Below are positions 8,753 through 26,053 of a stretch of DNA of 52,727 nt, piece by piece. Below the pieces are notes generated by a model that made no database searches, was not told the origin of the DNA, and saw only the letters and a program-made list of their open reading frames with translations. Origin of the DNA: Phycicoccus endophyticus (GTDB taxonomy: Bacteria > Actinomycetota > Actinomycetes > Actinomycetales > Dermatophilaceae); contig NZ_JAANCN010000014.1 in NCBI RefSeq assembly GCF_011326735.1, positions 1-52,727 on the forward strand, given 5' to 3'. How positions within the stretch are numbered: the first letter of the stretch is position 1; every line of letters begins with the position of its first letter. A program made the translations under genes and the position numbers.

Positions 8753-8888
8753 GGAAGACCTCTCCCACCCCTGCGCCACTCGCCCAGCACCGTCGACCTC
8801 GCCCAACCCCGGCGCCACAGCACCTCGGACCAGCGAGATCAGCAGGGCCCAGCGACCCTGACCCCACCGGGAGAGGTCTTCCGGTGGG
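8747..8888. repeat. Perfect 20-bp inverted repeat bounding a 142-bp non-coding segment
   Basis: The arm CCCACCGGAAGACCTCTCCC at 8747-8766 is matched exactly, inverted, at 8869-8888, with 102 bases between. The segment lies between the convergent ends of the M50 gene (stop 8703) and the ABC permease (stop 8902). It is too long-looped for an ordinary terminator and has no coding frame; a small non-autonomous element (MITE-like), a structured RNA or a bidirectional terminator are possible. No clear target-site duplication was seen. Confidence 0.7.
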
Positions 8889-8901
8889 GGTGGGGCGGGT
8901 G

Positions 8902-9726
8902 TTACTTGACGGAGCCGGCGGTCAGGCCGCCGACGAGGTGCTTCTCGATGAGCGCGAAGAGGATGACGACGGGCACGACGGCGATGACCGAGGCGGCGAA
9001 CAGCTGGTCCCAGTTCTGCTCGTAGCCGGTGACGTAGGAGCGGAAGCCCACCGTCAGCGGCTTCTTGTCGTCGTCGATCATCAGGGTCAGCGCCACGACG
9101 TACTCGTTCCAGGCGGCGATGAAGGTGAAGATCGTCGCGGTGACGAGCCCCGGCAGCGTCAGCGGCAGCATGATCCGCCGGAGCATCCCGAACCGCCCGA
9201 CGCCGTCGAGCGCCGCGGCCTCCTCCACCTCGAGCGGGATCGAGCTGAAGAACCCGTGGAGGATCCAGATCGCGAACGCCAGGTTGAACGCCGCGTTGGT
9301 GATGATCAGCGCGCCGTAGGTGTTGATCATGTTGAGCTCGAAGAACTGCCGGTACAGCCCGACGACGAGCGAGGTCGGCGCGAACATCTGGGTGATGAGG
9401 ACGACGAGGAGGAAGAGCCGGCGCCCGGGGAAGTGGTGGCGCGCGGTCATGAACGCCGCGGGGATGGCGACGAGGATGACCACCGCCGTCGCCCCGAGCG
9501 AGATGACGAGCGAGGTGAACAGCCAGTGCGGGAAACGGCCGTCGCCGAGCACCGTCGCGTAGGTGTCCCACTGCCACACCCGCGGCAGGAAGGAGGGCGG
9601 CGTCGTCTTGACGTCGGTGCTCGTGCGCAGGCTGTCGAGCACCATGACGAGGTAGGGCGCGAGGAAGACGACGGCCACGACGGCCGCGCCGAAGGCGACG
9701 AGTCGGGGGCGGCGGGTGCGGGTCAT
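8902..9726 (-). CDS. Sugar ABC transporter permease (MalG type)
   Basis: 274 residues with six membrane segments. The segment EEAAALDGVGRFGMLRRIMLPLTLPGL is the EAA loop that docks the ATPase, in the form typical of carbohydrate importers of the CUT1 class. The ATG at 9726 overlaps the stop of the upstream permease by four bases. It is the last gene of the binding protein-permease-permease operon. The operon lacks an ATPase gene, which is usual for actinobacterial CUT1 systems that share an MsiK-like ATPase encoded elsewhere. Confidence 0.92.
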   Translation of the reverse strand: MTRTRRPRLVAFGAAVVAVVFLAPYLVMVLDSLRTSTDVKTTPPSFLPRVWQWDTYATVLGDGRFPHWLFTSLVISLGATAVVILVAIPAAFMTARHHFPGRRLFLLVVLITQMFAPTSLVVGLYRQFFELNMINTYGALIITNAAFNLAFAIWILHGFFSSIPLEVEEAAALDGVGRFGMLRRIMLPLTLPGLVTATIFTFIAAWNEYVVALTLMIDDDKKPLTVGFRSYVTGYEQNWDQLFAASVIAVVPVVILFALIEKHLVGGLTAGSVK

Positions 9727-10694
9727 CGCGTCTCCTCCCGCCAGTTGACGACCTTGAGGTAGACGAGCACGACGACGAGGATGATCAGCACATTGATGAC
9801 GCCCGTCGCGGCGGACATCCCGACGTCCTTCTCCTGGCTCTTGAACGCGAGCTTGTACATGAACGTGATGAGGGTGTCGTGCCCGAAGCCCGGGTTGCGG
9901 TCGTTGAGCGTGTAGATGATCGGGAAGCTGTTGAACACGTAGATCGTGTTCAGGACGGTGGCGATGAGCATCGCCGGGCGCAGCAGCGGCAGGGTGATCC
10001 GCCGCCACCGCTGCCACGGGGAGGCGCCGTCGACCTCGGCCGCCTCCATGACGTCGGTCGGGATGGCGTTCAGGCCGGCGATGAAGACGAACGTCGTGAA
10101 CGGCAGCGACACGAACACCCCGACGACGACCATCGAGGCCATCGTGAAGCGGTCGTCCCCGAGGAAGCTGATCGGGGTGTCGATGACGTGCAGCCCGAGC
10201 AGGACGTGGTTGACCAGGCCGTAGTTGTAGTCGTAGAGCAGGACGAACAGCTGGCTGGTGATGACGAGGGAGGCCGCCCACGGGACGATGACCGCCCACC
10301 GCACGAAGCGCCGGCCGGGGAAGTCCTTGACGAGCAGCTGCGCCAGCGCCAGTGAGATGACGATGGTGAAGGCGACGACCGCGACGACCCACACGAGGGT
10401 GTTCTTCAGCACCACCGGCAGGTCGGGGTAGGAGAGGACCTTGCTGTAGTTCTCCCACCCCGCGCTGCCGAGGTAGAGCCCGGTGATCGAGTACTCCGAG
10501 CGCGAGGCCCGGAAGAGCATGACCGCCGGGAAGAGCACGACGCCGACGATGAGCGCGATGGCCGGCGCGAGCCAGAGCAGCGCGACGGGCGTGCTGACCC
10601 GGCCGATCCCGGTGGACCGCCGCCGGCGCGGGCGGGGTCCACCGGGGGTGGCGCGGCCCGACGACGGCGCCTGGACGTCGCCGGTGGTGGTCAC
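9723..10694 (-). CDS. Sugar ABC transporter permease (MalF type)
   Basis: 323 residues. After a basic, Pro-rich cytoplasmic N-terminus come six membrane segments and an EAA loop (MEAAEVDGASPWQRWRRITLPLLRPA). This is the partner of the next permease in a CUT1-type importer. The start is a GTG five bases beyond the stop of the binding-protein gene, so translation is probably coupled. Confidence 0.92.
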   Translation of the reverse strand: MTTTGDVQAPSSGRATPGGPRPRRRRSTGIGRVSTPVALLWLAPAIALIVGVVLFPAVMLFRASRSEYSITGLYLGSAGWENYSKVLSYPDLPVVLKNTLVWVVAVVAFTIVISLALAQLLVKDFPGRRFVRWAVIVPWAASLVITSQLFVLLYDYNYGLVNHVLLGLHVIDTPISFLGDDRFTMASMVVVGVFVSLPFTTFVFIAGLNAIPTDVMEAAEVDGASPWQRWRRITLPLLRPAMLIATVLNTIYVFNSFPIIYTLNDRNPGFGHDTLITFMYKLAFKSQEKDVGMSAATGVINVLIILVVVLVYLKVVNWREETR

Positions 10695-10699
10695 CTGGC

Positions 10700-11956
10700 T
10701 CAGCCCTCCGACTCCGCGGTCTGCTGCAGCTTGTCGAGCGTCTCCTGCGGGTCACCCGTCATCGCCGAGCCGAGGTTCTGCTGGACGGCGAGCTTGATCT
10801 TGTCCCACGTCGGGTCGTCGGTCGGGGTGAGGCGGGCGTTCGGCAGGGTGTCGAGGTAGACCTTGAGCTTGTCGTCCTTCTGGAAGTACTCCAGGCCGGA
10901 CTGGGTCACCGGGAGGAAGCCCTCCTTCTCGATGAACGTGTTGATCTGGTCCTTGGAGTAGTACAGCTCGTAGAACGCCTTGACGGCGTCCTGGTTGCCG
11001 GACTTCTTGAAGGCCATGAGGTAGTCGGTGACCCCGAAGGTCTTGCTCTCGGTCCCGTCGTTGCTCGGGAACGGCGCCACGGCGTAGTCGACCGTGCCGT
11101 CCTCGTCGAGCGACGCCGCGAGCGGGCTGAAGCCGACGACCATCCCGGCCTTGCCGGAGGCGAACAGGTCGAAGGCGTCGGCCCGGTTGGTGCGGGCCGG
11201 GTTGGCCTGGGTGACGCCCTCGTCCGCGAGCTTCTTCATGAAGGTCAGGGTCTCGACGTTCTGCTCGGAGTTGATCGCCCAGCTGCCGTCGGTCTTCCAG
11301 TCACCGCCGTTGTTGAACAGCCACATGGAGAACTCGCCCTGGGACTCCTCCGGGCCGAGCGGCATGGCGTAGCCGACGTCGCCGCCGTCGGTGATCTTCT
11401 GCGCGTCCGCCTCGAGCTCCTCCCACGTCGTCGGCGGGTTGGCGATGCCGGCCTTCGAGAAGAGGCTCGTGTTGTAGAACAGCGCCCGGGCGCTCGCTAG
11501 GTCGGGGAAGCCGTAGAACTTCCCGTCGTAGGTGCCGTACTGGACGAACGTCGGGAGGATGTCGGACTTGGCCTCGTCCGGCAGGACCTCGTCGCTGTCG
11601 TAGAGCAGCCCGTCCTTGGCGTAGCTGGCGTAGGCGTTGAGGTTGAGGATGTCCGGCGGCTGGTTGTTCTGGATCATCGTCGAGGACTGCTGGTCGATGT
11701 TGTCCCAGCTGACGACGTTGACGTCGAGGGTGTAGCCGTACGTGCTCTTGTACTCGTCGGCGAAGGCGTCCCAGAACGCCTTGGTGTTGTCCTTGGAGTA
11801 CTCCGCCGCCATCAGGGTGATCGTCGTCGCCTTCTCGGCGTCGTCACCCCCGCCACCGGCCTGGTCGGCCCCGGTGCCGCCGCCGCAGGCGGTCAGGAGC
11901 AGGGCGCCGCCCGCCGCGGTCGCGCCCAGGATGGTGTGTCGTCGCGTGGTGCTCAT
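10700..11956 (-). CDS. Sugar-binding lipoprotein of the ABC importer
   Basis: 418 residues. The N-terminus is a lipoprotein signal with LLLTAC, the cysteine being residue 24, followed by a Gly-rich linker. The rest matches extracellular solute-binding proteins of family 1 (for example TWEELEADAQKIT and ADAFDLFASGKAGMVVGFSP). It captures the substrate outside the membrane and hands it to the two permeases. The ATG has a GGAG site about six bases upstream. The substrate is not evident; nearby nagA, DeoR and ROK genes make an amino sugar or hexose plausible but unproven. Confidence 0.92.
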   Translation of the reverse strand: MSTTRRHTILGATAAGGALLLTACGGGTGADQAGGGGDDAEKATTITLMAAEYSKDNTKAFWDAFADEYKSTYGYTLDVNVVSWDNIDQQSSTMIQNNQPPDILNLNAYASYAKDGLLYDSDEVLPDEAKSDILPTFVQYGTYDGKFYGFPDLASARALFYNTSLFSKAGIANPPTTWEELEADAQKITDGGDVGYAMPLGPEESQGEFSMWLFNNGGDWKTDGSWAINSEQNVETLTFMKKLADEGVTQANPARTNRADAFDLFASGKAGMVVGFSPLAASLDEDGTVDYAVAPFPSNDGTESKTFGVTDYLMAFKKSGNQDAVKAFYELYYSKDQINTFIEKEGFLPVTQSGLEYFQKDDKLKVYLDTLPNARLTPTDDPTWDKIKLAVQQNLGSAMTGDPQETLDKLQQTAESEG

Positions 11957-12049
11957 CTCACTCCTCGTGGAGAAGCCGGTCGCCCGGTGTGCTGCGGCCC
12001 CCGTCCGGGCCGCGGCCGTGCGCTCCGTCCGAAGACGTCACTGTACAGG

Positions 12050-12104
12050 TGCGCATGATTGTGCGCGATAGAACGTGCAAGCGGTCACGTTTGCGCATCA
12101 TTCG
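12050..12104. promoter_or_regulatory. Candidate operator sites upstream of the ABC importer operon
   Basis: Two near-identical sites, TGCGCATGATT (12050-12060) and TGCGCATCATT (12092-12102), are 42 bases apart, i.e. four helical turns, with GTGCGCGAT in between. They lie in the 185-bp gap between the DeoR gene and the binding-protein gene, where the importer promoter must be. Spaced direct repeats of this sort fit DeoR-family binding; the neighbouring DeoR protein is the obvious candidate. Confidence 0.45.
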
Positions 12105-12141
12105 TCACCGTGTCGGGGTGTCTGCGGCGCCCGAGCGCGGT

Positions 12142-12948
12142 TCAGACGCAGACGACGTCCACGCCGCGGGCCCGCAGCGCCCGGACCTCCTCGTGGCCCT
12201 CGGGCGCGGAGGTGACGAGCGTCGTGATCCGCTCCGCGGGGCAGATCGCCGCGAACGTGCGCGCCCCCAGCTTGTCGCCGCCGGCGACGAGGACCACCCG
12301 GCGCGAGCGCTCGACCATGCTGCGCACGACCGCCGCCTCGTCCTCGAAGCGGCAGGTCGCGCCCTCCGCCGCGGAGAGCGCGTTGACCCCGACGACGGCG
12401 ACGTCGAACCACAGGCCGGTGAGGACCTGCAGGGCCAGCGGGCCGCTCACCTCGTAGGACTCCGGCCGGGCCACGCCACCGAGCGAGACGCACTGCACGT
12501 GGGGGCGCAGGACCGCCTCCGCGGCGATGTTCAGGGCGTTCGTCACGAGGGTGAGCCGCTCGCCGCCCGCCCCGGCGAGGTCCTCGCGGGCGGTGATCGC
12601 GCGCGCCGCCGCGGTGGTGGTCGTACCGCCGTTGAGGACGACGACCTCTCCCGGGCGCACGAGGCCGCCCGCCCGGGCGGCGATCCGCTCGAGCTCGTCG
12701 TCGGTCTGCGAGGAGCGGTAGCGGTAGGGCAGCTCGTAGGAGACCGCCGTGGCGACGACCCCGCCGTGGTGGCGGGTCGCGAGCTGGCGCCGGGCCAGCT
12801 CGGCGAAGTCGCGGCGCACCGTCGCCTCGGAGACCCCGAGCTCGCGCGCGGTCTCGGCGACGGTCAGCCGCCCCCGGGTCGCGAGGAGGTCGAGGACGAC
12901 CGCCCAGCGCGACGTCGGCGTGCGGGTGCCGTTCGCCTCGTCGCTCAC
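12142..12948 (-). CDS. DeoR-family transcriptional regulator
   Basis: 268 residues. The N-terminal winged helix (RLTVAETARELGVSEATVRRDFAELARR) is the DeoR signature, and the C-terminal part (residues about 75-235) is the ribose-5-phosphate-isomerase-like sensor, with VVLNGGTTTTAAARAI and LVTNALNIAAE typical of it. Such regulators respond to sugar phosphates, usually as repressors. It lies upstream of and parallel to the importer operon, and divergent from the ROK kinase gene. TACGAT ends six bases before the GTG start, a leaderless layout. Control of the importer and the kinase is the natural inference. Confidence 0.9.
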   Translation of the reverse strand: MSDEANGTRTPTSRWAVVLDLLATRGRLTVAETARELGVSEATVRRDFAELARRQLATRHHGGVVATAVSYELPYRYRSSQTDDELERIAARAGGLVRPGEVVVLNGGTTTTAAARAITAREDLAGAGGERLTLVTNALNIAAEAVLRPHVQCVSLGGVARPESYEVSGPLALQVLTGLWFDVAVVGVNALSAAEGATCRFEDEAAVVRSMVERSRRVVLVAGGDKLGARTFAAICPAERITTLVTSAPEGHEEVRALRARGVDVVCV

Positions 12949-13035
12949 CGGGCCATCGTAGGGTGCGAGCGCGCATTGCCGGTGCGTCTATGCTCGATCA
13001 GCCGCCCATTCCATCGCAATCGCGCAGGAGCCCCC

Positions 13036-13986
13036 GTGTTCGACGTCCACGAGTCCACGGCGGAGCACCCGTCCCCGCAGGACGCCGTGACGCCGTCGGT
13101 CCCGGTGACCGCCGGGGTCGACATCGGCGGCACCCGGGTCAAGGTCGTGCTGCGCCAGGGGGCCGGCGTCGTGGGCCGGCACGTCGAGCCGACCCCGGCG
13201 GACGTCGGCGCCCGGGTCGGGGAGGTCGTCGCGCAGGCGGTCGAGCGGCTCGTCGCCGCCGACCCCTCGCTGCCGAGGCCGCAGCGGGTCGGGGTCGTCG
13301 TCCCGGGGCTCGTCGACGAGGTCGCCGGGGTGGGGGTGTGGGCGGCCAACCTCGGCTGGGCCGACCTCGACCTGCGGGCCACCGTGGCCCGTGCCGTCGG
13401 GACCGACGTGGTCATCGGGCACGACGTGCGGGCCGGGCTGCTCGGTGAGCACCTGCTCGGCGCGGCGCGCGGCGTCGACGACGTGCTGTTCGTGCCGCTC
13501 GGCACCGGCGTCGCCATCGCCCTGATGAGCGGGGGGCGGGTGGTCCACGGCACGACGTGGTCCGGCGAGCTCGGCCACGTGCGCGTCGACCCCGACGGTC
13601 TGGAGTGCGGGTGTGGCCGCCGCGGCTGCCTCGAGACGGTGGTCGGCGCCCGGGCGGTCGCCCGCCGCTGGCAGGCGGCCGGGCGCGAGGGCGACGCCCG
13701 CGCGGTGGCCGAGGCGGTCGGTGGCGCCGACCCCCTCGCGTCGCAGATCTGGCACGCGGCCGTCGACACGCTCGCCGGGGCGCTCGCCCCGGTGGTCGCG
13801 GCGGCCGGCACCCGCCGGGTCGTCGTCGGCGGGGGGATGGCCGAGGCCGGGCCGGTGCTGCTCGACCCGCTGCGCGCCGCGCTCACCGCCCGGGTCCCCG
13901 ACCCGGCGCTCGAGGTGGTGCGGGCCGAGCTCGGTGAGTGGGCGGGCGCCATCGGCGCGGCCCACCTCGTCCCCGTCGGCAGCTGA
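13036..13986 (+). CDS. ROK-family sugar kinase
   Basis: 316 residues. GVDIGGTRVKVVL (about 27-39) is the phosphate-1 motif, and ECGCGRRGCLE is the ROK zinc signature (CxCGxxGCxE). The catalytic region WAANLGWADLDL and the GELGHVRVD motif also fit. No DNA-binding N-terminus is present, so this is an enzyme, not a NagC-like repressor. It probably phosphorylates glucose or an amino sugar. The GTG start has a GGAG site six bases upstream. It is divergent from the DeoR gene, 87 bases apart, and likely part of the same regulon as the importer. Confidence 0.88.
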   Translation: MFDVHESTAEHPSPQDAVTPSVPVTAGVDIGGTRVKVVLRQGAGVVGRHVEPTPADVGARVGEVVAQAVERLVAADPSLPRPQRVGVVVPGLVDEVAGVGVWAANLGWADLDLRATVARAVGTDVVIGHDVRAGLLGEHLLGAARGVDDVLFVPLGTGVAIALMSGGRVVHGTTWSGELGHVRVDPDGLECGCGRRGCLETVVGARAVARRWQAAGREGDARAVAEAVGGADPLASQIWHAAVDTLAGALAPVVAAAGTRRVVVGGGMAEAGPVLLDPLRAALTARVPDPALEVVRAELGEWAGAIGAAHLVPVGS

Positions 13987-14027
13987 GCCCCGGCGGCGCG
14001 GTCCCCCTCGGCGGCCGGCGTCGATGC

Positions 14028-14843
14028 TCAGGCGCCCGCGCCGGCCCCGAGCTCGGCGTAGGGGCGGGCCTGCCAGGTCGCCCAGTCAGCGCTCACCTCA
14101 CCGGCCGCGCGCTGCAGCAGCGGCAGGTGCTTCTCGACCAGCGTCTCGGTGGAGGTCTCCGCTGCGTGCACGGTGACGTTCATCGCGGCCCGGACGGCAC
14201 CGGTCCCGTCGCGCACCGGCACCGCGACCGAGCGCACCCCCGGGGCGAGCTCCTCGTCCGCCAGCGCCCACCCGCGGGCCCGCACCGTGCGCAGCTCGGC
14301 GTCGAGCGCCGGTCGCTCCCACCGGGTCCGGGGCGCGACGGCCGAGCGGCTCGGCCGGTCGAGGACGGCGTCGAGCTCGGCCCCGGAGAGGGCCGCGAGC
14401 AGGACCTTTCCCTGCGAGGTGGGCGGCGCCGGGAAGTGGGTGCCGATCTCGACCCGCAGGGCGATGATCTTCGGTACCGCGACCCGGGCGACGTAGACGA
14501 TGTCCGAGCCGTCGAGCTGGGCCATCGAGGAGGACTCCCCGGTCTGGGCGACGAGGTGCTCCATCCGGGGGCGCGCGATCTGCCACAGCCCGAGCGAGGC
14601 GACGTACGCCGACCCCAGCGACATCACCCGGGCGGTGAGCTCGAAGTCACCGCCGACCTGGCGGACGTGCCCGAGCTCTTCGAGGGTGAGCAGGAGCCGC
14701 CGCGCGGTCGGCCGGGCCAGGCCCGTCGCGGCGGCGACCTCGCTCAGCGACCGGCGAGGGTGCGCCGCGTCGAAGCAGGTGATGACGTCGAGGCCGCGCG
14801 CGAGCGCCTCGACGAAGTCGGGTCCCCGACCACGACCGGCCAC
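14028..14843 (-). CDS. IclR-family transcriptional regulator
   Basis: 271 residues. The winged helix (LSEVAAATGLARPTARRLLLTLEELGHV) and the C-terminal GAF-like ligand domain (SSSMAQLDGSDIVYVARVAVPKIIALRVEIGTHFPA... ALSG) match the Pca/Pob subgroup of IclR proteins. These usually control breakdown of aromatic acids, acting as activators or repressors with aromatic or keto-acid effectors. The GTG has an AAGGAG site at a good distance. It lies 63 bases downstream of the amidohydrolase gene on the same strand. Palindromic sites in the amidohydrolase/CoA-transferase gap are its likely targets. Confidence 0.9.
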   Translation of the reverse strand: MAGRGRGPDFVEALARGLDVITCFDAAHPRRSLSEVAAATGLARPTARRLLLTLEELGHVRQVGGDFELTARVMSLGSAYVASLGLWQIARPRMEHLVAQTGESSSMAQLDGSDIVYVARVAVPKIIALRVEIGTHFPAPPTSQGKVLLAALSGAELDAVLDRPSRSAVAPRTRWERPALDAELRTVRARGWALADEELAPGVRSVAVPVRDGTGAVRAAMNVTVHAAETSTETLVEKHLPLLQRAAGEVSADWATWQARPYAELGAGAGA

Positions 14844-14906
14844 CGCCGTCTCCTTCCGTCCGCGAGCCTCCGGGGTCGACCCGACCCTACGCGCGGGCCG
14901 GCACCC

Positions 14907-16385
14907 TCACCCCTCGCCGGCCCCTGGCTCGCCGAAGATGCTGCCCCGGGCGAGCGTGGTGTCGGTGCGGAAGTCGGTGTACTGGTACGGGTTGTCGAGC
15001 ACCTTGTCGTCGGCGTCCGGCATGGCGGGGTTCATCCCGGCCACCCAGGCGTCCTCGCCCATGACCGAGCGCAGGTGCTCGACGGTGGCGTCGGCCCGGC
15101 GGCGCAGGTCGGCCAGGTCGACCCCGACGAGCTCGCCCTCGTGCTTGACGACCCGGCCGTCGACGAGGACCGTGTGCACGTCGCCGCGCTGGGCCTGGAA
15201 CGCGACGTGGCCGTAGGGGTTGAGCAGCGGGAAGGACACCGGGGAGCGGTCGTTGCGCAGGAGGACGACGTCGGCCTTGGCGCCGGGCGTCAGGCGGCCG
15301 AGCTCGTCGGTGCCGAGCGCCCGGGAGCCGCCTCGGGTGGCCCAGTCGACCACCTGCTCGGCGCGCAGGTGGACGTTGGTCACGGTGTCGCCGACGGCGT
15401 GCGCCTCGAGGTGCTCCCGGGAGCGGTCCGCGCCGAGCGTCGTGCGCATCGCCGAGAAGAGGTCCCCGCTCCACCACACGCTCGTGTCCATCGACAGCGA
15501 GACCGGGATGTCGTGCTTGCGGACCTGCCAGGTGGGCGGGTAGCCCTGGCCGGCGCTCTGCTCGGACTCGGTCGACACCGACACCGAGCCGCCGGTGGCC
15601 GCGATCCGGTGGTAGCTGTCGGTCGAGAGGGTGGCCGCGTGCACGTAGACGGTGGACTCGTCGGCGAACCCGGCCTCGGTCATCAGCCGGATGCCGTCGT
15701 CGTTGGTCGCGCCCCACACACCGGCGTGCGTCGTGACCGGCAGCCCGAGCTCGCGGGCGGCCTCGAAGGCGGCCTTCTCGGGGAAGGAGGGGTCGCCGGT
15801 GACGTCGAAGGCGAGCTGCCAGCCGTAGAGGTCGCCGCGGCGCCGGTCGAGGAACCCGCGCAGCGCCGGGTCGGCGGTCCACTCCCACGGGCCGGCCTGG
15901 ATGTTGCCGTAGGCGAGCACGAAGCGCCCCGGCACGGCGGCGAGCGCGTCGACCGCCGCCTCGGCGTGGTCGATGCTCTGCAGGCCGTGCGACCAGTCGA
16001 CGGTCGTCGTCACGCCGGCCTCGAGCGACTCCCACGCGGAGAGGAGGTTGCCGGTGTGGACGTCCTCGGGCCGGAAGTGCCTGCCGCTCTCGAGGTAGTA
16101 CCAGACGAAGTACTGGGTGAGCGTCCAGTCCGCGCCGTACCCACGCATCGCCGTCTGCCACATGTGTCGGTGGGTGTCGACCATGCCCGGCATGACGATG
16201 CCGCCGGCGGCGTCGACCTCGAGCGTCCCCTCGGGGCCGGTGAGGCCGGGACCGACCTCGGCGACCCGGTCACCGACGACGAGGACGTCGGCCCCGGTGA
16301 GCACGGTGTGCGCGTCGTCCATCGTCAGCACCGTCCCCCCGCGGAACAGCACGGCCGGCGCGTCGGCCACCTCGGTGTGAGCCAT
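14907..16385 (-). CDS. Amidohydrolase/deaminase (cytosine deaminase-like superfamily)
   Basis: 492 residues from the ATG at 16385, which has GGGAGAG just upstream; another ATG at 16397 lacks such a site. Metal ligands fit the one-zinc COG0402 subgroup: THRHMWQ (His72, His74), TTHAG (His220), VYVHAA (His249) and SLSMDTSVW (Asp300). Relatives deaminate or dechlorinate N-heterocycles, such as 8-oxoguanine deaminase and the triazine hydrolases. The substrate here is unknown. Its position facing the ring-cleavage operon and next to the IclR gene suggests it prepares a substrate, for example by removing an amino group from an aromatic or heteroaromatic ring. Confidence 0.85.
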   Translation of the reverse strand: MAHTEVADAPAVLFRGGTVLTMDDAHTVLTGADVLVVGDRVAEVGPGLTGPEGTLEVDAAGGIVMPGMVDTHRHMWQTAMRGYGADWTLTQYFVWYYLESGRHFRPEDVHTGNLLSAWESLEAGVTTTVDWSHGLQSIDHAEAAVDALAAVPGRFVLAYGNIQAGPWEWTADPALRGFLDRRRGDLYGWQLAFDVTGDPSFPEKAAFEAARELGLPVTTHAGVWGATNDDGIRLMTEAGFADESTVYVHAATLSTDSYHRIAATGGSVSVSTESEQSAGQGYPPTWQVRKHDIPVSLSMDTSVWWSGDLFSAMRTTLGADRSREHLEAHAVGDTVTNVHLRAEQVVDWATRGGSRALGTDELGRLTPGAKADVVLLRNDRSPVSFPLLNPYGHVAFQAQRGDVHTVLVDGRVVKHEGELVGVDLADLRRRADATVEHLRSVMGEDAWVAGMNPAMPDADDKVLDNPYQYTDFRTDTTLARGSIFGEPGAGEG

Positions 16386-16411
16386 CGTCTCTCCCATCGT
16401 CGTTGATCGGT

Positions 16412-16435
16412 CGGACGTCCGTCCGCTCAGCGGAC
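16412..16435. promoter_or_regulatory. Palindromic operator candidates, amidohydrolase side
   Basis: CGGACGTCCG (16412-16421) is a perfect 10-bp palindrome and overlaps GTCCGCTCAGCGGAC (16421-16435), a perfect 7+1+7 palindrome. They fall in the leader of the amidohydrolase gene. The shared core CGGAC recurs in the operator on the other side of the gap, so one regulator, most simply the IclR protein, could bind both. Confidence 0.55.
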
Positions 16436-16450
16436 ACCACGCCGCACTCA

Positions 16451-16479
16451 CTGTCCCCCGCGCGGCCGCCGACTGTCAA
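16451..16479 (-). promoter_or_regulatory. Predicted promoter of the amidohydrolase gene
   Basis: On the minus strand TTGACA (16479-16474) is a perfect -35 element; GACAGT lies 18 bases further on, around 16455-16450, as a weaker -10. The palindromes at 16412-16435 would sit just downstream of the start site, suiting repression. Confidence 0.5.
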
Positions 16480-16509
16480 GGGTCGGGGTCGCAGTCTCGC
16501 CCGGATGCC

Positions 16510-16538
16510 TTGACAGCAGCCGTCACAGCGGCGAGGAT
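16510..16538 (+). promoter_or_regulatory. Predicted promoter of the ring-cleavage operon
   Basis: TTGACA at 16510-16515 is followed after exactly 17 bases by GAGGAT at 16533-16538. The expected start site, about 16545, is just before the palindrome at 16557-16570. Confidence 0.5.
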
Positions 16539-16556
16539 CGGCGGACCAACAGCCAG

Positions 16557-16577
16557 CGGACACCTGTCCGTATACGG
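16557..16577. promoter_or_regulatory. Palindromic operator candidates, ring-cleavage operon side
   Basis: CGGACACCTGTCCG (16557-16570) has perfect 6-bp arms around CC and runs into CCGTATACGG (16568-16577), a perfect 10-bp palindrome. The CGGAC core is shared with the sites at 16412-16435. The location between predicted start site and first codon of the CoA-transferase gene suits a repressor. Confidence 0.6.
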
Positions 16578-16597
16578 CGCCGACGAGGAGGTCAGCG

Positions 16598-17779
16598 ATG
16601 GGTACGAGCGGTGGACCGCTCTCGGGGCTCCTCGTCGCCGACTTCTCCCGCATCCTCGCCGGGCCCTACGCCTCGATGCTCCTCGCCGACCTCGGCGCCG
16701 AGGTGGTCAAGGTCGAGTCCCCCGGCGGGGACGACACCCGCACGTGGAGCCCCCCGGTCCGCGACGGGGTCTCGACCTACTACCTCGGGGTCAACCGCAA
16801 CAAGCGCTCGGTCGCCCTCGACCTCAAGGACGACGGGGACCGCGCCCTCGCCCAGGAGCTCGCCCGCCGCGCCGACGTGCTCCTGGAGAACTTCAAGCCG
16901 GGCGGGCTGGCGCGCTTCGGCCTGGACTACGAGACCGTTGCGCAGACCAACCCGGGCGTGGTCTACGCCTCGATCAGCGGCTTCGGCAGCGGGCCCGGCG
17001 GGCGGGACCTGCCGGGCTACGACCTCATCGTCCAGGCCATCTCCGGGCTCATGAGCCTCACCGGCGACCCCGAGGGCCCGCCGTTCCGTGCCGGCATCTC
17101 GGTCTTCGACGTCATGGCCGGGCTGCACGCGACGATCGGGACGCTCGCCGCCCTCAACGCGCGGCACGAGAGCGGCCGCGGCCAGCACGTCGAGGTCAAC
17201 CTGCTCTCCTCGGCACTCTCCGGCCTCGTCAACCAGTCCAGCGCGTTCGTCGCGGGAGGCGTCGTCCCGCACCGGATGGGCAACAGCCACCCGAGCCTCT
17301 TCCCCTACGAGCCGCTGCCCTGCGCCGACCGCGACCTCATCGTCACCGCCGGCAACAACACCCAGTTCCGCCGGCTCGTCGAGGTGCTCGGGGTGCCCGA
17401 GCTCGCCGACGACCCGCGCTTCGCCCGCAACGAGGACCGCACGGCCAACCGGGAGGCCCTGCGGCCGCTGCTCGTCGAGTGCCTGCGGACCCGTACCGCG
17501 ATGGAGTGGTTCCGCGACATCATCGCGGCCGGCGTGCCGTGCGGCCCGATCAACACCGTGGACGGCGGCGTGCGCTTCGCCGAGGAGGTCGGCCTCGACC
17601 CGGTCGTCGTCGTCGGCGAGGGCGACGCGGCAGTGCCGTCGGTCCGCAACCCGATCCGCTTCTCGGACAGCCAGGCCCGCTACGACCTGCCGCCACCCGC
17701 CCTCGACGAGCACGGCGCCGAGCTGCGCCGGTGGCTCGCTGCCCCGCCCCACCCGGCCACGCAGGAGGAGCCGCGATGA
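16598..17779 (+). CDS. Class III (CaiB/BaiF) CoA-transferase
   Basis: 393 residues, normal for the family. The N-terminus (LLVADFSRILAGPYASMLLADLGAEVVKVESPGGDD, seen in part) and the ISVFDVMAG motif with catalytic Asp171 are standard. These enzymes move CoA between carboxylic acids through an aspartyl-CoA intermediate. The ATG has GAGGAGG six bases upstream. It is the first gene of a tight operon and overlaps the next gene by four bases. Together with the lyase-like neighbour it suggests that a carboxylate product of ring cleavage is activated as a CoA thioester and then split. The acid involved is unknown. Confidence 0.92.
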   Translation: MGTSGGPLSGLLVADFSRILAGPYASMLLADLGAEVVKVESPGGDDTRTWSPPVRDGVSTYYLGVNRNKRSVALDLKDDGDRALAQELARRADVLLENFKPGGLARFGLDYETVAQTNPGVVYASISGFGSGPGGRDLPGYDLIVQAISGLMSLTGDPEGPPFRAGISVFDVMAGLHATIGTLAALNARHESGRGQHVEVNLLSSALSGLVNQSSAFVAGGVVPHRMGNSHPSLFPYEPLPCADRDLIVTAGNNTQFRRLVEVLGVPELADDPRFARNEDRTANREALRPLLVECLRTRTAMEWFRDIIAAGVPCGPINTVDGGVRFAEEVGLDPVVVVGEGDAAVPSVRNPIRFSDSQARYDLPPPALDEHGAELRRWLAAPPHPATQEEPR

Positions 17780-18558
17780 CGACCTTCCCCACCTCCCTCG
17801 GCACCTCGAGCGAGGACGAGATCCGCCTTCTCGGCCAGGACCTCACCGGCGACCTCATGGGGTCGGTGGGGTTCGGCGAGCTCGCCTTCTGGCTCGTCGC
17901 GATGCGCCGGCCCACGCCGGGCGAGGTGCGGGTCTTCGAGGCCGTGCTCGTCGCCCTCGCCGACCACGGGTTCACGCCCACGGCGATCGCGGCCCGGCTG
18001 ACCTACCTCTCCGCCCCGGACTCCCTGCAGGGGGCGCTGGCCGCGGGCCTGCTCGGTGGCGGCTCGCGCTTCCTCGGGGTCACCGAGGACTGCGGCGCCT
18101 TCCTGCACGCCGTCCTCGACGACCTCGAGGAGCAGCCCACCGACGACGCCGGCTGGGACGCCGTCGCTCTCGAGGCCGTGCGGCGCGCCCGGGCCGCCGG
18201 GCGCTACGTGCCCGGCCTCGGGCACCCGGTGCACAAGCAGGGCGACCCGCGCACCCCCGTCCTCGTCGGCATCGCGCGCGAGGAGGGGCAGTACGGCCCG
18301 CACCTGCAGCTGTTCGAGGCCGTCGGGCGGGTCCACGAGCAGGTCCTCGGCCGCCGGCTGCCGCTCAACGGCGCCGGGGTGTGCGGTGCCGCCCTCGCCG
18401 ACCTCGGGCTGCCGGTCGAGATGCTGCGCGGCTTCGCCCTCCTGGCCCGCTGTGCCGGCCTGCTCGGCCAGCTCGCCGAGGAGCGCCGCCGGCCGATCGG
18501 CATGGACGCCTACCTCACCGTCGACCGGGCCGCCGAGTACGTCGACCCCCGGTCCTGA
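17776..18558 (+). CDS. Citryl-CoA lyase / citrate-synthase-like protein
   Basis: 260 residues, much shorter than citrate synthase (about 370-430) and matching the short citryl-CoA-lyase-like group. PGLGHPVHKQGDPR (about 146-159) contains the conserved active-site histidine region, and LNGAGVCGAALADLGLP and RPIGMDAYL match the C-terminal catalytic half. Such proteins make or break the bond between an acyl-CoA alpha-carbon and a hydroxylated carbon. Coupled by ATGA to the CoA-transferase, it most likely cleaves the CoA ester made by that enzyme in a retro-aldol/Claisen step. True citrate synthase activity is unlikely in this setting. Confidence 0.8.
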   Translation: MTTFPTSLGTSSEDEIRLLGQDLTGDLMGSVGFGELAFWLVAMRRPTPGEVRVFEAVLVALADHGFTPTAIAARLTYLSAPDSLQGALAAGLLGGGSRFLGVTEDCGAFLHAVLDDLEEQPTDDAGWDAVALEAVRRARAAGRYVPGLGHPVHKQGDPRTPVLVGIAREEGQYGPHLQLFEAVGRVHEQVLGRRLPLNGAGVCGAALADLGLPVEMLRGFALLARCAGLLGQLAEERRRPIGMDAYLTVDRAAEYVDPRS

Positions 18559-18582
18559 CCCTTCCCGCAAAGGAGACCCGCA

Positions 18583-19446
18583 ATGGCGCAGGTCGTCGCC
18601 GTCATCGCCTCGACACACCACCCCTTCTACTACCGCGCGAGCACCGCCGTGGGCGAGGACCGTCCGCCGTTCGCCGACGAGTGGGTCGCGAAGATCGAGC
18701 GCTTCCGCGAGACCCTGACCCGGGCCCGGCCGGACGTGCTCGTCATGGTCGGCAGCGACCACTTCCACCAGCTGTGGCTGGACAACATGCCGCAGTTCCT
18801 CGTCGGCAAGGCACCTGTCTACGACGCCAACTGGTACAACGAGGAGCGCGAGTTCGGCCTACCGCGGCTGCGCCTCGAGGGGCACGAGGAGCTCTCCTCG
18901 CACATCCTGCGCGGCGGGCTCGACTCCGGCTTCGACCTCGCCTTCAGCAACGAGCTGCGGATCGACCACTCGGTGACCTGCCCGATCATCACCCTGCGGC
19001 CCGAGGCCGACCTGCCGATCGTGCCGGTCTACACGAACATCTTCGCCCCGCCGCTGCCGCAGCCCAGCCGGTTCGTCGAGCTCGGCCGCACCCTGCGGGC
19101 CCTCGTGGAGTCCTGGCCGAGCGACCAGCGGGTGGCGATCATCGGCACCGGCCACCTCTCCCTCGAGCTCGGCGGCCCCCGGCAGTTCGGCCCCCACGGC
19201 CCGGACCCGGAGTTCGACCGCAAGGCCGTGGACTGGATCGCCAGCGGCGACCTCACCGGCTGCCTCGGCGAGGTGACCCTGGAGAGCCTGCACGCCCCCG
19301 GCAACGCGACCCACGGCTTCATGGACTTCATGCTGATGATGGGCGTCGCCGGCGACGGGGTGCGGGCCGACCACGTCGACAGCCTCGACCTGTTCCACAC
19401 CATGGAGGCGTACTTCACCTGGTACCCCGAGGGAGCGCTGGCATGA
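18583..19446 (+). CDS. LigB-type class III extradiol ring-cleavage dioxygenase, catalytic subunit
   Basis: 287 residues. ASTHHPFYY (His12/His13) and MVGSDHFHQLW (His60, His62) match the iron-binding histidine regions of the LigB family, and IIGTGHLSLELGG (His191) the catalytic histidine. LigB enzymes open catechol-type rings next to one hydroxyl using Fe(II) and O2. I could not place the third iron ligand, a glutamate in protocatechuate 4,5-dioxygenase; Glu230, Glu234 or Asp248 are candidates. AAGGAG precedes the ATG. It overlaps the small-subunit gene by four bases, so the two are surely made together. Substrate unknown; a protocatechuate or gallate relative is possible. Confidence 0.88.
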   Translation: MAQVVAVIASTHHPFYYRASTAVGEDRPPFADEWVAKIERFRETLTRARPDVLVMVGSDHFHQLWLDNMPQFLVGKAPVYDANWYNEEREFGLPRLRLEGHEELSSHILRGGLDSGFDLAFSNELRIDHSVTCPIITLRPEADLPIVPVYTNIFAPPLPQPSRFVELGRTLRALVESWPSDQRVAIIGTGHLSLELGGPRQFGPHGPDPEFDRKAVDWIASGDLTGCLGEVTLESLHAPGNATHGFMDFMLMMGVAGDGVRADHVDSLDLFHTMEAYFTWYPEGALA

Positions 19447-19805
19447 GCAAGTACCTGCTGAACAAGTTCCTCTTCACCGTCGACCGGGACCCCGAGCTCG
19501 TCGAGCGCTACCGCACCGAGCCCGAGGCCACGGTCACCTGGTGGGAGGAGACCCAGGCCAACCGGATCCTCGGCTGCATCGACGACGAGCGCAGCACCTG
19601 GCTGGCCTTCACCGACGAGGAGCGCCGCGCGCTGCGCGAGCACGACCATGTCGCGCTCTTCGGGATGGGTGCCCACCCGTTCCTCACCCTGACCCTCTTC
19701 ATCGCCCTCTTCGAGCGCGACCACCCCGAGCCGATGTCCTACCAACGGGGGTACGCCGAGGCGCTGGCGCACATCGCGCTGCCCTACCCCGACATCGCGA
19801 CCTGA
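19443..19805 (+). CDS. LigA-type small subunit of the extradiol dioxygenase
   Basis: 120 residues. The helical N-terminus (SKYLLNKFLFTVDRDPELVERYRTEP) and the core FTDEERRALREHDHVALFGMGAHPFL match the alpha subunit of protocatechuate 4,5-dioxygenase (LigA), which covers the active site of the LigB subunit and helps hold the substrate. Order beta-then-alpha is the reverse of the common ligA-ligB order. It is coupled to the preceding gene by ATGA and followed two bases after its stop by the next start. Confidence 0.85.
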   Translation: MSKYLLNKFLFTVDRDPELVERYRTEPEATVTWWEETQANRILGCIDDERSTWLAFTDEERRALREHDHVALFGMGAHPFLTLTLFIALFERDHPEPMSYQRGYAEALAHIALPYPDIAT

Positions 19806-19807
19806 CC

Positions 19808-20785
19808 GTGCGCGCCGCCGTCCTCGCCGCCCACGGCGACCCGCCCCGGCTCGTGCGCCGCCCGGAGCCACCGCCCGGGGCCGGCGAGGTGCTCGTCGGC
19901 GTCACCGCGGCCCCGGTCACGCCGCTGGACCTGCTCTGCGCGGGCGGCACCTCCTACTTCGGGGCGCCGGCCCTGCCCTACGTGCCCGGCGTGCAGGGGG
20001 TCGGGGTCGTCCTCGAGGGTCCGGGCGCCCTGCCGGGAGCACGGGTGTGGTTCGCCTCGAGCGCCGGCATGGCACCCGGCGACGGCTCGCTCGCCGAGCG
20101 GGCCCGCTGCCGCGTGGAGGACGTCGTCCCGCTCGACCCGGGCTGCCCCGACCCGCTCGTCGCCGCGCTCGGGCTCTCCGCGGTCGCCGCGTGGGAGGTG
20201 CTCGAGGGCCGGGCCGGGCTGGTCCCGGGAGAGACCGTCCTCGTCCTCGGGGCCGGTGGGGTGGTCGGCCAGGTGGCCGTCCAGGCCGCGCGGCTGCTCG
20301 GGGCCGGACGGGTGGTCGCCGCCGCCCGCTCGGCACGCGCCCGGGACGCGGCGGTCGCCGCCGGGGCCGACGTCGTCGTCCCGCTCACCGCCGGCGAGCG
20401 CGCCGAGGAGCTCACGGAAGCGCTGGGCGCGGCCTGTCCCGGCGGGGTGGACGTCGTCGTCGACCCGCTCGCGGGCGTACCCGGGACCGCCGCGGCGGCG
20501 GTGCTCTCCGAGGGGGGCCGGCTCGTCAACCTCGGCAGCAGCGCCGGCCCGGCCCTGTCCGTCGGCTCCGCAGCGCTGCGCAGCCACAGCGCCGCCGTCC
20601 TCGGCTACACGAACGCCGCCCTGTCGGCACGGCGCCGTGCCGGGGTCCTGGCGACCGTGCTCGAGCACGCGGCCGCGGGCCGGCTCACGGTGCGCCACGA
20701 GGTGCACCCGCTCACCGCCTGCGCCGAGGCGTGGGCGCGGGTGGCGGACGGCAGCGCCGACGGCCGGGTCGTCCTCGTCCCCTGA
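19808..20785 (+). CDS. Quinone-oxidoreductase-like (MDR superfamily) NAD(P)H dehydrogenase
   Basis: 325 residues from a GTG two bases after the previous stop. The N-terminal GroES-like domain (GEVLVGVTAAPVTPLDLLC...) and the Rossmann motif VLGAGGVVGQVAVQAARLLGAG mark a medium-chain dehydrogenase. The catalytic-zinc cysteine and the structural-zinc cysteine cluster are absent, so it belongs with zinc-free quinone/enone reductases. As the last gene of the operon it may reduce an unsaturated or carbonyl intermediate after ring opening. The exact reaction cannot be inferred. Confidence 0.85.
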   Translation: MRAAVLAAHGDPPRLVRRPEPPPGAGEVLVGVTAAPVTPLDLLCAGGTSYFGAPALPYVPGVQGVGVVLEGPGALPGARVWFASSAGMAPGDGSLAERARCRVEDVVPLDPGCPDPLVAALGLSAVAAWEVLEGRAGLVPGETVLVLGAGGVVGQVAVQAARLLGAGRVVAAARSARARDAAVAAGADVVVPLTAGERAEELTEALGAACPGGVDVVVDPLAGVPGTAAAAVLSEGGRLVNLGSSAGPALSVGSAALRSHSAAVLGYTNAALSARRRAGVLATVLEHAAAGRLTVRHEVHPLTACAEAWARVADGSADGRVVLVP

Positions 20786-24356: not shown

Positions 24357-25229
24357 ATGCCGCACGTCACCGCCGAGATCGCCTCCCAGCCCGAGACCTG
24401 GCGCCGGGCCGCGGGGCTGGCCCCACAGGTCGCCGGCCTCCTGCCCGCGCCCGGGGAGCGGGTCGCGGTCGTCGGGTGCGGGACGAGCTGGTTCGTCGCC
24501 ATGGCCTGGGCGGTACTGCGCGAGCGGGCCGGCCACGGGGAGACCGACGCCTTCGCCGGCAGCGAGTTCCCCACCGGACGCCGGTACGACCGGGTGCTCG
24601 CGATCTCGCGCTCCGGCACGACGACCGAGATCGTCGACCTGCTCGCCGGAATCGGGGAGACCCCCTCCACCCTCGTCACCGCGGTGCCCGACTCCCCGGC
24701 GGCACGGGCCGCGGGCGAGGTCGTCGAGCTGCCCTTCGCCGACGAGGAGTCGGTCGTCCAGACCCGCTTCGCCACGAGCACCCTGGCCCTGCTGCGCGCC
24801 CACCTCGGCGAGGACGTCGAGCCGCTGGCGCAGGCGTGCGACACCGCCCTGACGGTCCCCGTGGAGGCGCTGCTCGATGCCGAGCAGTGCACCTTCCTCG
24901 GGCGGGGCTGGAGCGTCGGGCTGGCCTTCGAGGCCGCGCTGAAGACCCGGGAGGCGGCGCAGTTCTGGGCCGAGTCCTACCCGGCCATGGACTACCGGCA
25001 CGGACCGGTGAGCATCGCCCAGCCCGGTCGTCTCGTGTGGGCCCTCGGGGAGGTCCCCGTCGGCCTCGCCGACGAGGTCGCCGCCACCGGGGCCCGGTTC
25101 GTCCACCACGACCTCGACCCGCTCGCGGCACTCGTCGTCGCCCAGCGCTTCGCCGTGGCGCTCGCCGAGGCCCGCGGCCTCGACCCGGACCACCCGCGCT
25201 CGCTGACCCGCTCGGTCGTGCTCGGATGA
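24357..25229 (+). CDS. SIS-domain sugar-phosphate isomerase/deaminase
   Basis: 290 residues, two SIS modules. VAVVGCGTSWFVAMA and LAISRSGTTTEIVDLL are the phosphosugar-binding loops, and the second half (FLGRGWSVGLAFEAALKTREAAQFWAESYPAMDYRHGP, seen in part) resembles GlmS/AgaS isomerase domains. It has no glutaminase domain, so it would isomerise or deaminate an amino-sugar phosphate. The ATG has GAGGAG seven bases upstream. It overlaps the aldolase gene by four bases, which fits an AgaS-KbaY style route for galactosamine or a related sugar. Confidence 0.85.
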   Translation: MPHVTAEIASQPETWRRAAGLAPQVAGLLPAPGERVAVVGCGTSWFVAMAWAVLRERAGHGETDAFAGSEFPTGRRYDRVLAISRSGTTTEIVDLLAGIGETPSTLVTAVPDSPAARAAGEVVELPFADEESVVQTRFATSTLALLRAHLGEDVEPLAQACDTALTVPVEALLDAEQCTFLGRGWSVGLAFEAALKTREAAQFWAESYPAMDYRHGPVSIAQPGRLVWALGEVPVGLADEVAATGARFVHHDLDPLAALVVAQRFAVALAEARGLDPDHPRSLTRSVVLG

Positions 25230-26053
25230 CGACGCCGCAGGTCGACCTCGTCGGCGCCGCGCGCGCCGCCGGCCGGGGGCTCGGGGCGTTCAACGTCGTC
25301 CTCCTCGAGCACGCCGAGGGGATCGTCCGGGGTGCCGAGCAGGCCGGGCTACCGGTGGTCCTGCAGATCAGCCAGAACACCGCCGCCTACCACGGCGGGT
25401 TCGAGCCCGTGGCGCTCGCCGGCCTCGCGCTCGCGCGCGCGGCGGAGGTCCCGGTGCTCGTCCACCTCGACCACGCCCAGAGCGTCGACCTGGTCCACGC
25501 GGCGGTCGCGCTCGGTGTCCCGAGCGTCATGTTCGACGGGTCCGCCCTCCCGTACGAGGAGAACGTGGCGACGACCCGCGCGGTCGTCGAGCACTGTCAC
25601 GCCCACGGGGTGCGGGTCGAGGCCGAGCTCGGCGAGGTGGGCGGCAAGGACGGCGTGCACGCCCCCGGGGTCCGCACCGACCCGGCCGAGGCCGCAGCGT
25701 TCGTCGAGGCCACCGGCGTGGACTCGCTCGCGGTGGCGGTCGGCACCTCGCACGCGATGACCACCCGGGACGCCGCCGTCGACGAGCTGCTCATCGGCCG
25801 GATCGCCAGCACCGTCGCGGTGCCACTGGTCCTCCACGGCTCCTCGGGCCTGGACGACGCCGGGCTCGCCGGCGCCGTGCGCGCCGGCATGACGAAGGTC
25901 AACATCGCCACCCATCTCAACGCCCTGTTCACCGCCGCCGTCCGGGACGCCCTGGCCCGGCCGGACCTCGTCGACCCACGCCGGTACATCGGCCCGGGGC
26001 GCTCGGCGCTCGCCGCCGAGGTCGCCCGGCTGCTCACCCTGCTGCACGGATGA
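25226..26053 (+). CDS. Class II fructose/tagatose-bisphosphate aldolase family protein
   Basis: 275 residues. LVHLDHAQSVDLVHAAVALGVPSVMFDGS holds the zinc histidine and the class II aldolase signature; AELGEVGGKDG, VAVGTSHAM, LVLHGSSGLDD and VNIATHLN follow in the usual order. It would split a ketose bisphosphate into two triose phosphates. Fructose and tagatose versions cannot be told apart by eye; sitting between a SIS protein and an acyltransferase-like protein favours a dedicated catabolic role over glycolysis. Start and stop overlap both neighbours by four bases. Confidence 0.88.
   Translation: MTTPQVDLVGAARAAGRGLGAFNVVLLEHAEGIVRGAEQAGLPVVLQISQNTAAYHGGFEPVALAGLALARAAEVPVLVHLDHAQSVDLVHAAVALGVPSVMFDGSALPYEENVATTRAVVEHCHAHGVRVEAELGEVGGKDGVHAPGVRTDPAEAAAFVEATGVDSLAVAVGTSHAMTTRDAAVDELLIGRIASTVAVPLVLHGSSGLDDAGLAGAVRAGMTKVNIATHLNALFTAAVRDALARPDLVDPRRYIGPGRSALAAEVARLLTLLHG

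Follow-up and report, generated by a model that had tools for sequence, protein, structure and literature searches.

Two described routes of aromatic ring opening are closest to the system analyzed here. In the hydroxyquinol pathway, hydroxyquinol 1,2-dioxygenase, the product of which is 3-hydroxymuconate/maleylacetate, and maleylacetate reductase lead into the beta-ketoadipate pathway. Protocatechuate 4,5-cleavage (LigABCIJK) finishes with a lactone hydrolase, a hydratase and an aldolase. The present analysis concerns a module of seven genes in a contig of Phycicoccus endophyticus (NCBI RefSeq assembly GCF_011326735.1, contig NZ_JAANCN010000014.1, positions 1 to 52,727; this whole stretch of 52,727 nucleotides is called the window). 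The module encodes an IclR-family regulator, an amidohydrolase superfamily protein (AH), a family III CoA-transferase (CaiB), a citryl-CoA-lyase-like protein (CSL), the ring-cleavage dioxygenase homolog LigB, its small partner LigA and a reductase-like protein (MDR) ( Table 1 ). An earlier interpretation made by a model from the DNA alone, the sequence-only reading, had noted that the lactone hydrolase, hydratase and aldolase of the LigABCIJK pathway are missing from the module, and this was confirmed. Taken together, the results make it probable, if by a modest degree, that the module is a self-contained catabolic operon in which a hydroxyquinol-like (1,2,4-trihydroxybenzene-type) ring is opened and its product is then processed by CoA transfer and C-C cleavage.

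A recurrent gene unit

Named genomes, one per species, were scanned with LigB, and the best 80 loci by LigB match were kept from 494 stretches with a LigB relative. All four of CaiB, CSL, LigB and LigA are present in 80/80 of these loci, accompanied by IclR in 76, AH in 75 and MDR in 64, or in 63 without one 31 %-identical MDR on the opposite strand (locus L073). The 80 loci belong nearly throughout to actinobacteria, with the addition of rhizobial plasmids. The nearest named relatives of the module are those of Phycicoccus and Nostocoides, and plasmid-borne relatives include Aminobacter, Sinorhizobium, Martelella and Rhodococcus.

A search of the order with CSL (297 genomes) gave matches in 21. 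The 18 module loci viewed in wider context (the window and L028-L044; a weak CSL match in genome G100 lies outside this set) all carry CaiB-CSL-LigB-LigA consecutively and in the same order. IclR and AH are each present in 16 of them and MDR in 7, and the surroundings are for the most part unrelated. Three more CSL loci of the order (L045-L047, 33-42 % identity) have no LigB. LigB at 60 % identity or more occurs in 21/297 genomes of the order, 19 of which also have CSL; the other two (L179, L180) hold copies that look eroded, and in L180 the C-terminal half of LigB is joined to a C-terminal fragment of AH, and neither CaiB nor CSL was found.

The CoA-transferase, CSL and the ring-opening genes are one evolutionarily stable unit, and a chance association is excluded. 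The claim of the sequence-only reading that these genes belong together is thus upheld in 80/80 and 18/18 loci, and the genome search that it had proposed as a check found the seven-gene neighborhood to be recurrent, with the core four genes in every one of the 80 loci. No described pathway with this gene set was found in the open-access literature searched.

Relatives of the module vary in their accessory genes. A sister clade with the same LigB type, whose LigB is 37-39 % identical to that of the window and likewise lacks the Glu ligand discussed below, has the gene order MDR-CaiB-amidohydrolase-LigB-LigA, clearest in L185 and L184. Its loci (L181, L183-L186) contain CaiB, an amidohydrolase (PF04909 in L185) and LigB, plus LigA and MDR where these were found, and no CSL; L184 adjoins dihydropyrimidinase, nitrilase-like, Rid-family and LLM genes. 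Single branches have PobA-like, MhpA-like and MetE-like neighbors. A gene resembling cobalamin-independent methionine synthase, and PRK09121-like in the two loci scanned for it (L055, L128), lies in or beside the module in L055, L056, L065, L233 and L128, whose hosts are distant from one another (Actinomycetospora, Pseudonocardia, Aminobacter), a possible hint at methoxylated substrates.

Exchange of the ring-cleavage enzyme

The operons of Rhodococcus NBC_00297 (L132) and R. opacus G13 (L199) match gene by gene at 61-89 % identity (IclR 79, FAD hydroxylase 85, alpha/beta hydrolase 81, AH 89, CaiB 88, CSL 82 and LeuD 61 %). The slot between CSL and the LeuD-like gene holds LigB-LigA in the former and an intradiol dioxygenase (PF04444+PF00775) in the latter. 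The same swap is seen, in another gene order, between L268 and L269. In a sample of the phylum (396 genomes), CSL with at least 63 % identity occurs in 13 genomes, 8 of them with LigB, 3 with an intradiol gene that immediately follows CSL (L221, L223 and L224) and 2 with neither. The class sample yielded 44 CSL places in 43/394 genomes, divided into 23 with LigB, 8 with an intradiol dioxygenase (one of these calls being a 78-residue match only), 2 at contig ends and 11 with neither. LigB and an intradiol dioxygenase were never found together at any of the examined loci of the order, phylum and class, and the genome of the window lacks a match to an intradiol dioxygenase (PF00775). A tree of concatenated CaiB and CSL sequences with 66 rows (56 LigB rows picked by hand and 10 intradiol rows; short search, SH-aLRT only; L233 and L268, with short matches, and L265, L196 and L198 omitted) shows six slot changes, at least four of which are forced by strongly supported branches.

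Against solved structures, the top five matches of two of the ten intradiol enzymes (190-266 and 192-240 bits) were hydroxyquinol 1,2-dioxygenases, the hydroxyquinol-type enzyme PnpC, 6-chlorohydroxyquinol dioxygenase and an intradiol enzyme without a specific name, while catechol and chlorocatechol enzymes trailed at no more than 122 bits. Motifs of the DGxY, GYxxP and AHxH types are conserved in the intradiol sequences, with minor deviations in L223 and L224. The exchange with a hydroxyquinol-type intradiol dioxygenase points to a trihydroxybenzene as the likely substrate. If CaiB and CSL have the same role in both operon kinds, both dioxygenases should deliver the same acid, and from the shared slot LigAB should take the same substrate as the hydroxyquinol-type enzyme and give the same or an equivalent product.

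The presumed CoA-dependent half of the module

CaiB combines PF02515 with Asp171, invariant in 101/101 sequences and, by motif reading, presumably equivalent to the catalytic D169 of Frc, which places it in family III of the CoA-transferases. Among named models it comes closest to those of succinate-glutarate and oxalate CoA-transferases, without reaching either cut-off.

CSL scores 284 bits against PRK06224.1-5, a model of a citryl-CoA lyase subfamily, above the cut-off of 193, and 89 bits against the citryl-CoA lyase structure 6hxp. It keeps both His motifs of citryl-CoA lyase (ADHG, GxGH), with H64, H150 and H153 present in 93/93 module sequences. The catalytic Asp of the NVD motif is replaced by Ala (LNGAG); Ala200 occurs in 93/93 module sequences and none of ten other relatives aligned has an Asp at this position, which is intact in both longer citrate synthases of the window genome. 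A true citryl-CoA lyase was rejected on account of this missing Asp. The label "citryl-CoA-lyase-like" therefore stands as to the fold, whereas the chemistry that it implies is unproven. Five annotated CSL relatives (about 40-44 % identity) lie amid acyl-CoA dehydrogenases, MaoC hydratases, CoA ligases and CoA-transferases, neighborhoods that agree with CoA-ester cleavage and would fit a lyase acting on 3-hydroxy- or 3-oxoacyl-CoA.

Five of the class loci with CSL only were viewed by eye. An acyl-CoA-synthetase-like gene adjoins CSL in three of them (L251, L258, L264), and L251 and L258 (CSL 73 and 67 %) also have a VOC protein and a mycothiol-dependent maleylpyruvate-isomerase-like gene, with CaiB not found, an arrangement that is possibly an alternative route of CoA activation. 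No synthetase-like, VOC or maleylpyruvate-isomerase-like gene was seen in L240 and L262.

An altered metal site in LigB

In the numbering of LigB, the iron is held by H12, H61 and E242, and the second-sphere catalytic His is H195. Aligned with DesB and LigB, the window protein keeps both iron-binding His (His12, His60) and the DH His, with Gly at position 245 for the Glu ligand and Leu194 for the second-sphere His, and an invariant His191 three residues earlier. Leu194 is present in 99/99 module LigB sequences. The collected loci provided 138 distinct reading frames of the LigB superfamily, 136 of them complete at these sites (window numbering). In 117/136, His191 goes together with Gly or Gln at the Glu position and with the absence of the second-sphere His; another 17 have Gly191, the second-sphere His and Glu, and two are intermediate (Ser, Leu, Glu). 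His191 together with Glu was seen in no sequence among the 136. Since the window protein's own branch, with its rhizobial and Rhodococcus members at 63-66 % identity, accounts for 109 of the 117, the independent weight of the pattern lies in those distant members and in eight others (L133, L136, L182; L181, L183, L184, L186, L166). The simplest reading is a ligand exchange in which His191 would have replaced Glu.

The best PDB matches of the AlphaFold2 model of LigB are gallate dioxygenase and LigAB. The model has a mean pLDDT of 66.8, and its confidence is low in the segments that surround the active site (60-77, 123-133 and 192-200). The protein misses the NCBIfam dioxygenase cut-offs (best PRK13364, 128 bits versus 290). 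Of the features of class III extradiol LigAB enzymes, the fold and the LigA partner are present, and the 2-His-1-carboxylate site and the second-sphere His are absent. Changing His200 of homoprotocatechuate 2,3-dioxygenase reportedly led to intradiol cleavage (the work of Groce and Lipscomb in 2003), and LigAB as an intradiol enzyme fits the loss of its second-sphere His, as in that variant. In the favored reading, the LigAB variant displaces, and perhaps mimics, the intradiol enzyme. In its most specific form, a tentative proposal that we hold to be possible rather than likely, LigB proteins of the His191 type would be natural intradiol enzymes on a LigAB fold, binding the metal by His12, His60 and His191 instead of a 2-His-1-carboxylate site, devoid of the second-sphere His that steers extradiol cleavage, and converting hydroxyquinol to maleylacetate, which would make them exchangeable for hydroxyquinol 1,2-dioxygenase. 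CaiB and the Asp-less lyase would then split the product with neither maleylacetate reductase nor thiolase.

A doubtful alternative, yet the strongest one, is that LigAB is truly extradiol, cutting the same triol at a different bond, with downstream enzymes that accept both products and MDR or AH compensating for the difference. The fold of LigB is that of extradiol enzymes, and MDR accompanies 64/80 LigAB loci and 0/10 intradiol loci (Fisher p 9e-7, a contrast confounded by ancestry). MDR is, however, also absent from those LigAB operons that are neighbors of intradiol operons on the tree (L034, L055, L132, L188, L189, L193 and L248, and from L268 off the tree), which argues that it is not needed with LigAB, and CaiB and CSL are close orthologs in both operon kinds. 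MDR as an obligate LigAB partner was rejected, given the confounding of its distribution by ancestry.

Proposed pathway

Gene content, co-conservation, active-site changes and the slot swap were computed; from them we infer the substrate, the order of the steps and each reaction. In the pathway of triol opening and CoA-dependent cleavage, AH would probably make the triol from a precursor, and LigB-LigA would open its ring, acting on the same substrate as the hydroxyquinol-type 1,2-dioxygenase of the sister operons. The ring-opened acid should be the same or equivalent in both, in the simplest case maleylacetate (3-hydroxymuconate). CaiB would transfer CoA onto this acid, probably from succinyl-CoA, and CSL would split the CoA ester at the bond beside the acetyl unit to give acetyl-CoA and a C4 acid. 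MDR (PIG3-like at 86 bits, below cut-off) may be an optional reductase, either for quinones or for a C=C bond in replacement of maleylacetate reductase. The operon would be controlled by the PcaR-like IclR protein, which scores 266.6 bits against TIGR02431 (cut-off 284.75), a near relative of PcaR/PcaU/PobR and no member by the curated rule.

Several observations weigh against this pathway. The altered metal site of LigB leaves room for other chemistry, another reaction is likewise conceivable for CSL in the absence of the Asp on which citrate-synthase-type chemistry depends, and maleylacetate as the product is a deduction. The genes are also found apart. CSL at 65-74 % identity occurs with no CaiB, AH or LigB within about 5 kb or up to the contig end in 11 of the 44 class places, and on two short contigs of the phylum sample (L222, L225) CaiB-CSL or CSL has neither dioxygenase behind it. 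LigB-LigA is found with no CSL or CaiB alongside in genome G475 (L190), the ninth LigB genome of the phylum sample, and with no adjoining CaiB or CSL in R. johnstonii, the sister clade has CaiB and no CSL, and three rhizobial modules have a LigB that is closer (63-66 %) than their distant CSL and CaiB (33-41 %). Finally, the PobA-like and MetE-like neighbors in Actinomycetospora would also suit a protocatechuate- or methoxy-type substrate. The places with CSL only, the CSL-free sister clade and the PobA-, MhpA- and MetE-like neighbors show that the parts have been recombined, and hence that the substrate may vary by branch.

Alternative substrates and ring-opening enzymes

The sequence-only reading had proposed that LigAB 4,5-cleaves protocatechuate or gallate and that 4-carboxy-4-hydroxy-2-oxoadipate (CHA), or a precursor of it, is activated with CoA, CSL replacing the LigK aldolase. 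The homology of LigB and LigA to protocatechuate and gallate enzymes, two Actinomycetospora loci whose operon includes a PobA-like hydroxylase, and the citrate-like logic of CSL speak for it, but it is improbable in view of what the same genome holds elsewhere. Contig C18 carries a protocatechuate 4,5-cleavage operon (L152, C18:118000-137999, at 8301-14226) with, in a row, a Gfo/Idh dehydrogenase, a fused LigA-LigB, a LigI-like hydrolase, LigK, a LigJ-sized protein and IclR. The fused protein scores 738.7 bits against PRK13372 (cut-off 837), passes the cut-offs of PRK13366 and TIGR02792 LigA, and has the canonical GTGGMSHQ and GSEGIELVMW motifs in its LigB part. LigK, at 387.8 bits, is above the TIGR02798 cut-off of 304.5, and the LigC-, LigI- and LigJ-like labels are based on size, order and weak or no model matches. 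ABC-transporter-like genes and a VOC-like protein adjoin this operon by eye.

LigC, LigI, LigJ and LigK were not found in the module, and such genes stand together on C18 with another LigAB, so that the module as an incomplete protocatechuate pathway was rejected. A LigC/I/J/K set elsewhere in the genome, which the sequence-only reading had itself named as an argument against its proposal if it served the module's dioxygenase, does exist in the form of this LigABCIJK-like operon, although the operon has its own fused dioxygenase. Besides the C18 pathway, protocatechuate or gallate as the substrate is contradicted by the loss of the Glu ligand and the second-sphere His from the module LigB and by the exchange of its slot for hydroxyquinol-type intradiol dioxygenases. 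With it falls CHA as the CoA-activated intermediate, which is unsupported; on chemical grounds, splitting of CHA-CoA would yield acetyl-CoA and 2,4-dioxoglutarate, and the module has no evident enzyme to handle the latter.

A slightly less probable possibility is that LigB is a non-oxidative metal enzyme and AH the ring-cleaving dioxygenase. A precedent is KpiC, a PF01979 protein described in the excerpted text of PMC7356986 as the ring-opening dioxygenase for 3,4-dihydroxypyridine. AH itself scores 360.9 bits against PRK08204, below the cut-off of 391, and its metal ligands H-x-H, H, H and D (H76, H78, H224, H253, D304) are invariant in 89/89 sequences. Deaminases and chlorohydrolases of the ATZ/TRZ type combine these metal ligands with the acid/base Glu of an HxxE motif. 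Judged by this motif, AH has no such Glu, the position three residues after H224 being Val in 98 % of the sequences; an ordinary deaminase was rejected for this reason, and the missing Glu, like the altered LigB metal site, would suit a role for AH in ring cleavage. AH is nevertheless retained where the slot is occupied by an intradiol dioxygenase with iron-site motifs, and its relatives accompany intradiol and VOC genes. The four relatives viewed (L195-L198; 288 plasmid records matched) all sit in intradiol or VOC ring-cleavage clusters. In Cupriavidus necator N-1 an AMP-binding protein, a CSL relative, maleylacetate reductase, the AH relative and an intradiol dioxygenase are clustered, and a Skermanella cluster has the AH relative, an intradiol dioxygenase, maleylacetate reductase and a "3-keto-5-aminohexanoate cleavage protein"; both clusters are also independent hints in favor of the triol pathway. 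From this company AH is likelier to prepare the ring than to open it, and aromatic catabolism may be a common role that the family name "amidohydrolase" obscures.

Least probable is an N-heterocycle or aminophenol that AH deaminates and LigAB opens, to which the L034 operon with its RidA-like (by eye), PuuE-like deacetylase (below cut-off) and M20-like (by eye) genes and the dihydropyrimidinase, Rid-family and LLM genes of L184 lend some color, against the confinement of such neighbors to L034 and the sister clade among the loci viewed and the circumstance that, to our knowledge, hydroxyquinol-type intradiol enzymes do not cut heterocycles. The sequence-only reading had put forward a broader, still hypothetical role for AH in preparing an amino- or hetero-aromatic substrate.

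Two described catabolic systems were also considered and rejected. The ring-cleaving candidate of flavonoid catabolism (fde/ifc) is of the glyoxalase type in the portion of PMC11069340 at hand, the main text of which lacks the terms CoA, amidohydrolase, LigB and citryl. The genes of riboflavin/lumichrome catabolism differ, according to partial text of PMC12746152.

Gene layout and surroundings

The cluster is tight and divergent, with IclR and AH on the minus strand and CaiB-CSL-LigB-LigA-MDR on the plus strand, their ends overlapping or almost touching ( Table 1 ). IclR, AH, CaiB, CSL, LigB and MDR pass their Pfam cut-offs and LigA is the only exception (E 0.0028, 18.2 versus 25.3 bits). Nevertheless, 18/19 LigA family members match PF07746 at E of at most 1 (best 4.3e-9). 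Comparison of LigA with solved structures gave nothing informative. By open reading frame positions and Pfam, and for LigA through its family, the gene content and coordinates given in the sequence-only reading proved correct.

Table 1. Genes and features of the module in the window.
Feature	Position	Strand	Basis and remarks
IclR-family regulator	14028-14843	-	PF09339+PF01614; nearest PcaR/PcaU/PobR (beta-ketoadipate pathway regulators)
AH, amidohydrolase superfamily	14907-16451	-	PF01979, PRK08204-like; start probably ATG at 16397
Divergent intergenic region AH/CaiB, presumed promoter	16452-16597		gene positions only
CaiB, family III CoA-transferase	16598-17779	+	PF02515, 388 bits
CSL, citryl-CoA-lyase-like, citrate synthase fold	17776-18558	+	PF00285 C-terminal part, 260 aa
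LigB, class III ring-cleavage dioxygenase fold, altered metal site	18583-19446	+	PF02900
LigA, small-subunit partner of LigB	19443-19805	+	PF07746 via family
MDR, zinc-free quinone reductase/enoyl reductase-like, accessory	19808-20785	+	PF00107/PF13602/PF08240

Both flanks (window 7004-13986 and 24357-26053) hold, by eye, sugar/amino-sugar-like genes, namely ABC transporter, DeoR-like, ROK-like, SIS and class II aldolase genes, and the module looks as if it had been placed inside or beside this cluster.

Significance and comparison with known systems

The reading of the module as an operon for a hydroxyquinol-like ring offers a concrete substrate hypothesis for a widespread putative aromatic pathway (494 stretches with a LigB relative). 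Unrelated enzymes of extradiol and intradiol fold appear to be interchangeable in it, and the altered residues are the very Glu and His of extradiol chemistry, so that the module may be a natural experiment on how a non-haem iron enzyme comes to choose between intradiol and extradiol cleavage, a long-standing question of bioinorganic chemistry. The annotations "citryl-CoA lyase", "extradiol dioxygenase" and "amidohydrolase" in such clusters may misstate function.

With KpiC the module shares the Pfam family of AH, a likeness known at the family level only, and the kpi cluster, as far as the excerpted source (PMC7356986) goes, differs in having no homolog of known ring-opening dioxygenases. Citryl-CoA lyase (6hxp; the lyase module of ACLY) has the fold and both His motifs of CSL, which departs from it in the Ala that replaces the Asp of LNVDG and in its partners, CaiB and a dioxygenase. 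Relative to the gallate dioxygenase DesB and LigAB (PDB 3wra, 1bou), the module LigB has Gly for Glu, Leu for the second-sphere His and the additional invariant His191. The LigABCIJK pathway, as in Sphingobium and on contig C18 of the window genome, has in common with the module the LigB fold, the LigA partner and a partner of the amidohydrolase superfamily; the module differs in having none of LigC, LigI, LigJ and LigK, in a LigB devoid of Glu and second-sphere His, and in a lower half that would be CoA-dependent.

The hydroxyquinol/beta-ketoadipate pathway is resembled in the hydroxyquinol-type dioxygenase that fills the slot in sister operons, in the regulator near PcaR/PcaU, and in CoA transfer followed by C-C cleavage as by PcaIJ and PcaF. 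The module differs from it in its LigAB-fold dioxygenase and in having no maleylacetate reductase (two Fe-ADH matches, at match level only, lie elsewhere in the window genome), PcaIJ or PcaF thiolase. CaiB and CSL would thus be analogous to PcaIJ and PcaF, yet they are drawn from unrelated families.

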